Shown piece after piece: positions 54,760 to 57,977 of a stretch of 64,000 nt of DNA. A program made the position numbers and the translations under genes. This DNA comes from Limnohabitans sp. 2KL-27 (lineage in GTDB: Bacteria; Pseudomonadota; Gammaproteobacteria; Burkholderiales; Burkholderiaceae_C): NCBI RefSeq assembly GCF_001269345.1, contig NZ_CXOP01000002.1, forward strand, positions 1,984,853-2,048,852, given 5' to 3'. Each line of letters opens with the position of its first letter. The first letter of the stretch is position 1. The notes beneath the pieces are model-generated. The model worked only from the letters and a program-made list of their open reading frames with translations. It was not told where the DNA came from and ran no database searches.

Positions 54760-55521
54760 ATGTCGCTGTTCAATCTCACAGGGAAAGTCGCCGTCGTCAC
54801 GGGCTCCAGCCGGGGCATTGGCCGATCGATCGCGCACCAATTGGCCCGCCAAGGCGCCAAGGTGGTCGTGTCCAGCCGCAAGCTGGACGCCTGCGAAGTG
54901 GTGGTCCAGGAAATCCAGGCCGCTGGCGGCGAGGCCATGGCAATAGCGGCCAGCATCTCCAGCAAAGAGCAGTTGCAAAACCTGATCGAGCAGACCCGTG
55001 CCGCGTGGGGGCCCATCGACATCCTGGTGTGCAACGCGGCCACCAACCCGTATTACGGCCCCACCACAGGCATGAGCGACGAGGTGTTCGACAAGGTCAT
55101 GCGCAACAACGTGTTGTCCAACACTTGGCTGTGCACCATGGTTTATCCGGACATGAAGGCCAAGAAGGACGGTGCGATCGTGATCGTGTCTTCCATTGGC
55201 GGCCTGCACGGCTCGGCCATCATCGGCGCGTACAACATCTCCAAAGCCGCCGACATGCAGCTCGCGCGCAACCTGGCGGTGGAATGGGGCCCAGACAATA
55301 TCCGCGTGAACTGCATCGCCCCAGGCCTGATCAAAACGGACTTTGCCAAGGCGCTGCACGAGGACCCGGTGCTGAGCGCCAAGTACAACAACGAGACCCC
55401 GCTGCGCCGCATGGGCGAGCCGGACGACATTGGCGGTGTGGCGGTGTTTTTGGCCAGTCGGGCTGGGCAGTATGTGACGGGTCAGACCATCGTTGCGGAT
55501 GGCGGGATGATGATTCGCTGA
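54760..55521 (+). CDS. Short-chain dehydrogenase/reductase (SDR)
   Basis: A 253-aa classical SDR. The cofactor motif is TGSSRGIGRSIA at residues 14-25, with NAATNPYYGP following, the catalytic Ser in VSSIGGLHG and the Tyr-Lys pair in YNISKAA. R42 in VVSSRKLDAC suggests NADP preference (inference). AAGGAGA precedes the ATG. The substrate is unknown. The last codons (ATT CGC TGA) are the first unit of a nine-copy 8-bp tandem repeat that runs on past the stop. Confidence 0.92.
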   Translation: MSLFNLTGKVAVVTGSSRGIGRSIAHQLARQGAKVVVSSRKLDACEVVVQEIQAAGGEAMAIAASISSKEQLQNLIEQTRAAWGPIDILVCNAATNPYYGPTTGMSDEVFDKVMRNNVLSNTWLCTMVYPDMKAKKDGAIVIVSSIGGLHGSAIIGAYNISKAADMQLARNLAVEWGPDNIRVNCIAPGLIKTDFAKALHEDPVLSAKYNNETPLRRMGEPDDIGGVAVFLASRAGQYVTGQTIVADGGMMIR

Positions 55522-55582
55522 TTCGCTGATTCGCTGATTCGCTGATTCGCTGATTCGCTGATTCGTTGATTCGCTGATTCGT
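55511..55582 (+). repeat. Nine tandem copies of an 8-bp unit (TGATTCGC)
   Basis: Nine head-to-tail units of TGATTCGC; units 7 and 9 read TGATTCGT. The array begins inside the last codons of the SDR gene and each unit contains TGA. The SDR stop codon is the first triplet of the second unit. The rest of the SDR-sodB gap (to 55779) holds hairpin copy A but no gene. Confidence 0.95.
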
Positions 55583-55610
55583 TGTCAGGTGCGTTGTGCT
55601 GTGGGCGCCG

Positions 55611-55684
55611 CTGAGCACAGGCTGGAGCCGGGCACCTCATGAGGGGGTACCCAAAATCGGCGCCCGGCCCCAGCCCATGCTCAG
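55611..55684. repeat. Hairpin element copy A (conserved 28-nt loop)
   Basis: Nested complementary arms: CTGAGC/GCTCAG (outer), GCTGG/CCAGC, and GCCGGGC/GCCCGGC (inner), separated by a 4x4 internal loop and one mismatch. The loop 55634-55661 contains CTCATGAG, GGGTACCC and CAAAATCG. The same loop, with three changes, is found in copy B at 56529-56604 on a different stem. Confidence 0.85.
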
Positions 55685-55779
55685 CTCAGAGGTTGATCGA
55701 TGGTCTTTCCAGACAGCGGGCTGTTGGCTCTGGGCAATCCGGTCCACCCAGTGTCACATTCACCTTCTTCCCATGAAGC

Positions 55780-55805
55780 AAAAAGCCCGCATCCGCGGGC
55801 TTTTT
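55780..55805. terminator. Bidirectional terminator after sodB
   Basis: Stem AAAAAGCCCGC/GCGGGCTTTTT with loop ATCC. T-runs occur on both strands. It lies 19 bp beyond the sodB stop and also faces the SDR transcript. Confidence 0.92.
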
Positions 55806-55824
55806 GACTTGGAGAAAACGTCGA

Positions 55825-56406
55825 TCAGGCGAAGTTTTTCTCGGCGAAAGACCAGTTCACCAGCTTGTCGAGGAAAGTCTCAACGAACTTGGGACGCATG
55901 TTGCGGTAGTCGATGTAATAAGCGTGTTCCCACACGTCCACGGTCAGCAAGGCGGTGTCACCGGTGGTCAGGGGGGTGCCGGCAGCGCCCATGTTGACGA
56001 TGTCGACCGAGCCGTCGGCTTTCTTGACCAGCCAAGTCCAGCCGGAGCCAAAATTGCCCACGGCGCTCTTGACGAAGGCTTCCTTGAAAGCGGCGTAGCT
56101 GCCGAACTTGGCGTTGATGGCTGTGGCCAAAGCGCCTGTGGGCTCGCCGCCGCCGTTGGGCTTCATGCAGTTCCAGAAGAAGGTGTGGTTCCAGATCTGG
56201 GCCGAGTTGTTGTACACACCACCGCTGGATTTTTTGATGATCTCTTCGAGGGACATGCTCTCGAATTCAGTGCCTTTTTGCAGGTTGTTCAGGTTCACCA
56301 CATAGGCGTTGTGGTGCTTGCCATGGTGGAATTCCAGGGTTTCCTGGCTGTAATGGGGGGCCAATGCGTCGATGGCATAAGGCAGAGCGGGCAAGGTGTG
56401 TTCCAT
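55825..56406 (-). CDS. sodB: Superoxide dismutase (Fe type)
   Basis: A 193-aa SOD. The metal ligands are visible: H27 in [10 protein letters not shown]75 in WNHTFFWN, D158 and H162 in [14 protein letters not shown]. The motif [14 protein letters not shown] and length favour the Fe-type family, although Fe or cambialistic Mn use cannot be fixed by eye. AAGGACA precedes the ATG. It is flanked on both sides by the conserved-loop hairpins and has its own terminator. Confidence 0.96.
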
Positions 56407-56528
56407 GAGGGTGTCCTTTTGTTGTTGCGGGTTGAGGGTAGACCCATGCATTTTAGGGGTTGCCTGATCGCCCTTTGGAGCGGCAGGTCACTGGCGCGCA
56501 TTCCTGCGATGGTGATCTGAACGACATC

Positions 56529-56604
56529 GCCTTGGCGGGGTGGGGCCAGGGCTCCTCATGAGGGAGTACCCAAAATCGTCGCCCTGGCCCCACCCCGCCA
56601 AGGC
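56529..56604. repeat. Hairpin element copy B (conserved 28-nt loop, 24-bp perfect stem)
   Basis: The 24-nt arm at 56529-56552 is perfectly complementary to 56581-56604 (outer part GCCTTGGCGGGG, inner part TGGGGCCAGGGC). The loop 56553-56580 contains CTCATGAG, GGAGTACCC and CAAAATCG and matches copy A at 25 of 28 positions. No T-run follows on either strand. It ends 17 bp from the xseA stop codon. Confidence 0.9.
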
Positions 56605-56621
56605 TTACCCCAAAAGCTCCA

Positions 56622-57977
56622 TCAACCAGACACCGTCAAAGGCACCACACCGTCAGACAAGGTCGCCTGAACGCTCTGCCCGGGCTCAAACTGCCCGGCA
56701 TGGGTCAAAGCCTGGCCCTTGTCGTCGCTCAGCCAGGCATAGCCGCGCTCCAGCACCCGGCGCGGATCCACTGACGACAAACGCAAAGCGGCCCGCTCCA
56801 GGCGCTGGGCACTTTGCTGCACTTGCTGGCCCCGATTGAATTTCAAGCGGTCATCGAGCCGCGTCAGCTGGTGGCCACTGGCCACCAACCGGGTTTGAGC
56901 ACCCGCTTGCAAGCGGTGCGCCAACTGCGCCAGCCACTGGCCGTGCTGGCCCAGCAGCGCTTGCGGGCGGCTCAAGCGGACGGCGATGGCACTGAGCCGT
57001 TGGGCTTGGCGGTCTTGCTGCCGGGCCAGGCCTGCGCCCCATCGGGCGGCCACACCGTCCAGTTGCTGGGCCTGCCGGTCTTGCTGGCGCAGCAGGCCTC
57101 GGGTCAATCGGTGCTCCAACACGCTCAAAGCCTCAAGACCCACACCCCGATCGGTCGCAGCCATCTCGGCAGCGGCCGTGGGCGTTGGGGCTCGCACATC
57201 GGCCACAAAGTCAGCGATGGTGAAATCGGTCTCATGGCCCACGCCGCAAATGAGCGGCACAGGGCTTTGGGCGATCACGCGGGCCAGGTTTTCATCGTTG
57301 AATGACCACAGGTCTTCCATCGAGCCGCCCCCACGCACCAACAAAATCACGTCCACCGGGGGCGACAGCGGGTTGTCTTCGGCCGTGAGGGCATAGATGT
57401 TTTGCAAGGCCTGCACCAGCGTGGCGGCAGCGCCTGCGCCCTGCACCAAGGCCGGGGCCATCAACACGGGAATGTGCGGCACGCGCCGCTGTAAAGCGGT
57501 CACCACATCGTGCCAAGCGGCAGCGCCCAGCGAGGTCACGACCCCAATGGCTCGGGGCTGGGCGGGCAAGTCGCGTTTGTGGGCGGGGTCAAACAGGCCC
57601 TCGGCTTCGAGCTGGGCCTTGAGGCGCAAAAACTGCTCGAACAAAGCCCCCTGCCCGGCCCGCTCCATGGACTCGACGATCAACTGCAGATCGCCACGGG
57701 CCTCGTACACCCCCAAACGCCCCCGCACCTCGACCAGTTCACCGTCGAGCGGCGCAAAGTCCATCAAACTTGCGGCGCGCCGAAACATGGCGCAGCGGAT
57801 CTGCCCGGTGTCGTCCTTGATCGAGAAATAACAATGCCCGCTGGCAGCGCGCGAGAAGCCCGACATCTCGCCGCGCACCGTGACCGGGTTGAACTGGGCG
57901 TCCAGCGTGTCAGCCATGGCGCGGCACAGCGCAGAAACTGTCCACGCACGCGGCTTCAAATCGTCATTCAAGGGCAT
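56622..57977 (-). CDS. xseA: Exodeoxyribonuclease VII large subunit
   Basis: A 451-aa subunit of the ATP-independent single-strand exonuclease VII. The N-terminal OB-fold (RGEMSGFSRAASGHCYFSIKDDTGQIRCAMF) is followed by the catalytic domain with GVVTSLGAAAWHDVVTALQRRVPHIPV and the Arg/Gly/Glu-rich block LLVRGGGSMEDLWSFNDENLARVIAQSPVPLICGVGHETDFTIADFVADVRAPTPTAAAE. A long Gln/Arg-rich helical C-terminus follows. Length is normal. The gene for the small subunit, xseB, is not in the window. Confidence 0.95.
   Translation of the reverse strand: MPLNDDLKPRAWTVSALCRAMADTLDAQFNPVTVRGEMSGFSRAASGHCYFSIKDDTGQIRCAMFRRAASLMDFAPLDGELVEVRGRLGVYEARGDLQLIVESMERAGQGALFEQFLRLKAQLEAEGLFDPAHKRDLPAQPRAIGVVTSLGAAAWHDVVTALQRRVPHIPVLMAPALVQGAGAAATLVQALQNIYALTAEDNPLSPPVDVILLVRGGGSMEDLWSFNDENLARVIAQSPVPLICGVGHETDFTIADFVADVRAPTPTAAAEMAATDRGVGLEALSVLEHRLTRGLLRQQDRQAQQLDGVAARWGAGLARQQDRQAQRLSAIAVRLSRPQALLGQHGQWLAQLAHRLQAGAQTRLVASGHQLTRLDDRLKFNRGQQVQQSAQRLERAALRLSSVDPRRVLERGYAWLSDDKGQALTHAGQFEPGQSVQATLSDGVVPLTVSG

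Follow-up and report, generated by a model that had tools for sequence, protein, structure and literature searches.

The locus lies within a 64,000-nt stretch of DNA from Limnohabitans sp. 2KL-27, referred to here as the window, in which sodB stands between a short-chain dehydrogenase (SDR) gene and xseA, with one conserved hairpin, A or B, in each of the two intervals. Pfam matches support these gene assignments, which a preliminary description of the same DNA had already proposed, and the two hairpins that it placed around sodB are borne out by the sequence, their 28-nt loops agreeing at 25 positions with 3 differences. The features are listed below by their positions in the window.

54775..55521, plus strand: SDR gene, short-chain dehydrogenase (Pfam adh_short_C2, 1.6e-63; start chosen by the analyst), its 3' end toward element A
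55609..55686, minus strand: element A, 78 nt, between SDR and sodB (match to covariance model R1, 78.3 bits, E 8.6e-16), folding into an outer stem, an internal loop and an apical hairpin
55636..55659, minus strand: conserved 24-nt core of A, CGATTTTGGGTACCCCCTCATGAG
55780..55805, no strand assigned: intrinsic-terminator-like hairpin, AAAAAGCCCGC..GCGGGCTTTTT, between sodB and element A, also seen at the A sites of relatives
55825..56451, minus strand: sodB, Fe/Mn superoxide dismutase (Pfam Sod_Fe_C and Sod_Fe_N)
56528..56605, minus strand: element B, 78 nt, between xseA and sodB (R1 match, 81.8 bits, E 1.3e-16)
56555..56578, minus strand: conserved 24-nt core of B, CGATTTTGGGTACTCCCTCATGAG
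56622..57977, minus strand: xseA, exonuclease VII large subunit (Pfam Exonuc_VII_L, 3.3e-93), its 3' end toward element B

Two instances of the 24-nt loop pattern are present in the window, whereas 100 shuffles gave a mean of 0, and both A and B fold far better than shuffled sequences on either strand (z -6.4 to -8.8). Since the terminator-like hairpin at 55780-55805 separates sodB from A, element A is assigned to the region 3' of SDR and is not expected to form part of the sodB transcript. The interval also holds a tandem repeat of the octamer TGATTCGC (8.9 copies, window 55511-55581), which begins at the SDR 3' end and differs among relatives.

The two strands of the hairpins are not equivalent. 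Copy A forms an uninterrupted 27-bp stem on the minus strand and a broken stem on the plus strand, because its apparent mismatches are G.U wobbles on the minus strand; four such wobbles are marked there, one at position 2, and the same positions are A.C mismatches on the plus strand. Folding with DNA parameters gives -33.8 kcal/mol for the minus strand of A compared with -27.8 kcal/mol for its plus strand, while the strands of B are nearly equal (-39.2 and -38.6 kcal/mol). The preliminary description had read the less stable strand; its perfect 24-bp stem in B stands, and the interruptions that it saw in A are confined to the plus strand.

The minus strand gives the best reading of the element: an outer stem of 26 bp, free in sequence, leads to an internal loop, CGAUUU/YAUGAG, beyond which lies a short apical hairpin that covaries. 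What had been taken for an open loop of 28 nt is thus actually a 5x5 internal loop capped by an apical stem with covarying pairs. Across the 230 unique elements selected by pattern, the two arms form Watson-Crick pairs in 67-95% of cases from position 3 through position 26, but in 53, 41 and 26% at positions 27, 28 and 29, so the stem has a length of 26 bp irrespective of its sequence. At position 1, A.G stands in 144 elements and C-G in 72, and position 2 is most often G.A (109); these two positions probably form tandem sheared G.A pairs, for which Watson-Crick pairs can be substituted. The outer apical letters swap jointly in the same 230 (CT..AG 159, GT..AC 27, TC..GT 16, TG..CT 12), with only the inner pair canonical in the TC..GT and TG..CT forms. 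The elements used for pairing, context, flank, cluster, wobble and pair counts were picked by a regular expression fixing most core letters, so the invariance of the core is partly by construction; searches with the covariance model did recover variant apical parts, reaching elements with other apical stems and other loop lengths in which CGATTT and ATGAG are kept. The part of the element that stays constant is thus the internal loop, with a free stem on either side. The right flank, on the outer side 12-17 nt beyond the stem, is weakly rich in A (40-49% A).

The freedom of the stems is matched by compensatory change. An alignment of 52 diverse elements shows changes on both sides in 26 of 27 outer pairs and in 2 of 4 apical pairs. 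Doubly changed cells number 518, where shuffles give 150.5, and the covariation score is 0.829, whereas slid partners reach 0.174 at most. Paired cells make up 90.9% of these rows compared with 56.9% after shuffling, the former being an upper figure: the 52 were hand-chosen for intact arms among 70 of a diverse set of 88, a choice that excluded elements whose right arm is broken (L037, L051) as well as others. The same behaviour is seen at single sites, where grouping by flank similarity yielded 12 clusters of at least 4 elements. The cluster of the window's A site comprises 14 loci with 11 distinct sequences, one of which has lost its right arm, some loci being overlapping fetches of one genome; 92% of its cells pair, GT cells outnumber AC cells 12 to 4, and 5 pairs have changed on both sides. 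Other site clusters are 77-97% paired, one having 15 GT and 0 AC cells; the first flank cluster merges neighbouring hairpins of one locus, and another further down, of 5 rows with 77% paired, groups copies that have nothing but repeated flanks in common. Because the site clusters keep pairing despite their changes, the stem drifts in place and still pairs. At the B site, the element is missing in L015, and its loop is oppositely oriented in several relatives. Covariation, also at single sites, thus strongly supports the preliminary proposal that a conserved loop with compensating stems reflects selection on structure. That proposal had named two findings that would count against it, an absence of copies in relatives and arms conserved as sequence; both were looked for, and further copies with compensatory changes were found instead.

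Hairpins A and B are members of a large dispersed palindromic family in freshwater Comamonadaceae, apparently without a name. The own genome holds 6 loop copies at up to 3 mismatches and 14 covariance-model matches, 4 of the latter within uvrA. Across the genus, the loop pattern (up to 3 mismatches) is present in 82 of 90 genomes, with 1 to 31 matches per positive genome, and the reversed control matched once in each of four genomes. Model R1 detects the element in 62 of the 299 genomes searched in the family Comamonadaceae, and in 41 of 135 genera there, the elements being 76-82 nt long. In a separate scan of named genomes, the matches listed include Limnohabitans, Rhodoferax, Polaromonas and other Comamonadaceae or Burkholderiales, together with a few records under other titles that may be mislabelled bins. 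Beyond the family, an order-wide pattern search was positive in 6 of 399 genomes and an order-wide model search in 3 of 200, one of these lying outside the home family; this element (L240, 1501-1613), whose apical part is about 35 nt longer, is the sole positive among 28 genomes of its family. Two of the six pattern matches, with one mismatch and outside the home family (L185, L186), gave no fit to the covariance model up to E 1, and a model search of a family inferred to be Alcaligenaceae, that of G225, found no element in 200 genomes. No viral contig matched the exact pattern, on which ground a phage origin of the element was rejected. The preliminary description knew of no named family that fits, and Rfam 15 agrees for the stretches scanned: the window copies matched only miRNA models below gathering scores, and L224, L225, L164 and L228 matched only a tRNA. 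No paper on the element itself was found by an open-licence literature search.

The arrangement of the copies is that of a dispersed intergenic repeat. Among 237 copies with distinct context, 199 have a gene within 1 kb on both sides, 38 rows being left out; gene calls for context and wobble counts came from a simple ORF picker, not annotation. Single copies (n=111) lie 40 times between convergent, 63 times between co-directional and 8 times between divergent genes, and clustered copies (n=88) 22, 56 and 10 times, respectively. At least one gene 3' end faces the copy in 103 of the 111 single copies. Some picked ORF covers 52 of the 237 rows; in one of these, over 240 bases of the ORF remain on each side. 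After deduplication, neighbours less than 400 bp apart (n=72) are 66 times '-+', 4 times '++' and 2 times '--', a separate tally without deduplication giving 54, 6 and 2; by eye, paired hairpins carry different stems. Limnohabitans and Polaromonas contain homologous composite units at several places per genome, with spacers and ends partly conserved, as is also the case for BIMEs, and in some Limnohabitans the hairpin lies within a GGGGTCAGATCAACATTAATT inverted repeat that includes a GGGGTCAGA part. The spacers of paired hairpins in L231, L232, L048, L108, L093, L078, L133 and L148, several of which are titled Polaromonas, hold further palindromic motifs such as GGTAGCGCGCTACC. Gene-specific regulation was rejected as an explanation, the neighbouring genes being diverse. 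The preliminary remark that each hairpin sits at the 3' side of a gene holds for position, and the copies are better described as a REP/BIME-like dispersed repeat than as a gene-specific 3'-UTR element.

Copies also occur within a coding frame. The gene for a tandem UvrA of 2,123 aa (L282:609-6980; own genome C2:743608-749979) carries four hairpin copies, spread over the three linkers between its domains and translated in frame into peptides that include GSSYGGGTPKSS and GDDFGVPPPHEEP, and the UvrA proteins of relatives have hairpin peptides in the same linkers. Among named organisms, the closest relatives of this UvrA are Limnohabitans, at 86-90% across the region used as query. Among 120 matches listed of 7,997 scored, 112 contained both anchors of linker 1, which ranges from 28 to 159 aa; both peptides were present in 44, one in 46 (26 reverse only, 20 forward only) and none in 22, classes that rest on peptide patterns, 3 of the 22 'none' linkers being long enough for remnants. 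In-frame copies were found only in tandem uvrA, in a search that was not exhaustive. UvrA proteins, whose linker 1 may hold no insert encoded by a hairpin, one or two, constitute a natural panel in which gain and loss are directly testable.

The wobble pairs indicate which strand folds. On the CGATTT strand, GT/TG cells outnumber AC/CA cells 348 to 73 at positions 4-22 of the 230 elements, an asymmetry implying that the fold of this strand matters. The bias follows the element and not the gene: elements antisense to both neighbours have GT:AC 88:16 (by element, 36 against 2, with 6 equal), sense elements 98:29 (32 against 4, with 7 equal), convergent elements 85:21 and divergent elements 22:5. 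The direction GT>AC holds in stricter non-redundant sets, in which the small divergent group is not significant, and 17 uvrA copies from four loci give 10:2 in antisense and 10:0 in sense orientation. Because the bias does not reverse in antisense elements, selection is unlikely to act on the element as a cis-acting hairpin in mRNA, while the counts fit a fold that the CGATTT strand, and not its complement, adopts as single-stranded DNA. Between RNA and extruded DNA, the two possibilities named in the preliminary description, the independence from gene orientation favours extruded or replicating DNA over mRNA; the asymmetry would equally fit an independently transcribed RNA.

The reading that we prefer, to which we give about an even chance, is that these are REP/BIME-like palindromes whose CGATTT strand folds when single-stranded and would be bound by a putative strand-specific DNA enzyme, the fold being under selection. 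What the sequences show directly is the family with its fold and compensatory change, a strand asymmetry that ignores gene direction, the inverted pairs, and copies both between genes and in frame; single-stranded DNA rather than RNA, an enzyme and mobility are what we infer here. The CGATTT strand would fold when exposed during replication or repair, the putative enzyme would bind the folded strand through its internal loop, and it may once have spread the element, inverted pairs included, or may still do so. A copy that came to lie at a distance from promoters, 3' of a gene or in a UvrA linker would be tolerated, with its fold staying under selection. Somewhat doubtfully, the element might go further and represent a new class of single-stranded DNA recognition, in which a non-RAYT enzyme would read the internal loop (tandem G.A) 26 bp from the foot on one strand, with inverted pairs as its substrate, placed in frame into UvrA linkers.

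RAYT proteins are unsupported as the partner. Of 59 genomes that carry the element, 47 have a Y1_Tnp match, as do 14 of 17 genomes without it, which leaves 12 and 3, respectively, lacking one, so there is no association, and no match to the element model was found in 40 fetched loci around Y1_Tnp matches. Among the Y1_Tnp (RAYT-type) loci of the genus, 8 of 10 have GGGGTCAGA and TCTGACCCC on the two sides instead of the hairpin (L175, L177-L183).

Small structured RNA provides an unlikely alternative, in which each copy would be a tiny RNA gene transcribed independently from the CGATTT strand, its internal loop serving as a protein-binding motif. Tolerance of wobbles, the covarying apical stem and the exchange of non-canonical for Watson-Crick pairs near the core (position 1, A.G or C-G) are all typical of RNA. 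Against this, copies lie within the uvrA coding frame in both orientations, the Rfam scans of the stretches gave nothing above gathering score except the tRNA, and no promoter or terminator signal is conserved in 141 non-redundant flanks to about 100 bases beyond the stem, where the information content is 0.24 bits at most and hexamers close to the -10 or -35 consensus show no preferred offset.

Roles in mRNA stability, as an RNase III site or in processing have been proposed for the REPs of E. coli, and a cis-acting 3'-UTR or intercistronic hairpin would act here in the same way, including processing between cistrons. The many copies faced by a gene 3' end accord with it, as do those between co-directional genes, in some cases presumably boxB-boxA and aldehyde dehydrogenase-DUF779 to judge by their sequences. 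As the selected function it is distinctly improbable, given that single co-directional copies are 31 times sense and 32 times antisense, that the GT excess remains on the CGATTT strand in antisense copies, and that a terminator-like hairpin stands between sodB and element A; an effect of the hairpin on mRNA is likely as a side effect.

Decay offers a further explanation, namely a MITE-like repeat whose fold is no longer under selection and whose palindromes are kept by template switching during replication. Collapsed and half-deleted copies exist (L081, L017), such as that at about 4080-4120 of L081, which has lost its loop and inner arms and retains a short perfect palindrome, and the enclosure of the element by GGGGTCAGA repeats in some Limnohabitans points the same way. 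L164 has, to the right of 11243 and of 12721, additional 3' halves of the hairpin repeated in tandem, which look like products of slippage from loop to flank; decay would also explain such half-hairpins. Template-switch repair of palindromes could mimic part of the compensatory change, but it predicts neither the GT excess nor a kept non-canonical loop; the two sides of the internal loop remain non-complementary even though the stems vary freely, and the outer apical letters swap together, leaving decay a very unlikely account. Against the preferred reading, neither a clean empty site nor a target duplication was found, one of the two comparisons having counted divergent copies as empty, and in 7 filtered close pairs the other genome had a partial or collapsed element or a different interior, with no exact excision. 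Because many sites are old and orthologous, mobility at present is conjectural. An intrinsic transcription terminator, suggested by a strong GC-rich hairpin downstream of genes, was rejected as extremely improbable, for no T-tract follows the hairpin on either strand, the right flank being A-rich and T-poor and the left flank C-rich, and the A site has a separate terminator-like hairpin.

The family is defined by its fold with free stem sequence, unlike the usual sequence-defined palindromic repeats of bacteria, and searches by sequence tend to miss it for that reason. The strand test, asking whether wobble bias follows the gene or the element, helps to separate mRNA function from DNA function on the basis of sequence alone and is applicable to REPs, Rickettsia palindromic elements (RPEs) and similar repeats. 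Should the preferred single-stranded DNA reading be true, an enzyme that acts on hairpins of one strand would still await discovery in bacteria that are common in fresh water.

Integron attC sites and IS200/IS605 ends are strand-specific single-stranded DNA hairpins recognised by fold rather than stem sequence, and the Comamonadaceae element would resemble them in the fold of one strand, PF01797 being the enzyme domain covered in this comparison. The Polaromonas motif of PMC5217627 consists of letters other than those of the element in the part of that source consulted. BREs, as described in the consulted part of PMC3110155, are similar in being 75-91 bp long, GC-rich and intergenic, with some coding copies, and are reported in Comamonadaceae; they are defined by more than 70% sequence identity, form tandem units or VNTRs and are common in Bordetella. 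The present element, whose stems differ freely and whose close neighbours are inverted, does not form tandem units more than 70% identical, and with 0 of 200 genomes positive in the family inferred to be Alcaligenaceae it is set apart from BREs by description, not by letters. RPEs, in the excerpts seen of PMC10969869 and PMC3733652, are likewise palindromes translated in frame in conserved genes, but they belong to another host group and the in-frame copies here are restricted to tandem uvrA, a likeness by description rather than by letters.

The closest comparison is with the GTAG/CGTC REPs, BIMEs and REPINs, which, according to the portions consulted of PMC3733652, PMC2817692 and PMC3116915, are palindromic and intergenic, lie mostly between unidirectional or convergent gene pairs and form inverted dimers. 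Inverted dimers and rarity between divergent genes are found here as well (66 of 72 pairs '-+'; a divergent context for 8 of 111 single copies and for 10 of 88 clustered ones). GT pairs in the stems and copies within uvrA and other repair genes are described for GTAG/CGTC REPs in the available part of PMC3733652, and the uvrA location reported there for REPs of other bacteria is a striking parallel. The differences, as far as these excerpts of the REP literature go, lie in a stem of 26 bp of free sequence compared with 5-13 bp, in a conserved internal loop compared with an unpaired GTAG/CGTC tag at the hairpin foot, no tetramer being conserved beyond the stem in the 141 flanks (maximum 0.24 bits), and in the REPtron arrangement, where the REP flanks a gene for a Y1 tyrosine transposase (RAYT), as the present element does not at the 40 Y1_Tnp loci. 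The Comamonadaceae element thus behaves like a REP or BIME, yet by tag, stem length and transposase it is not a GTAG/CGTC REP.
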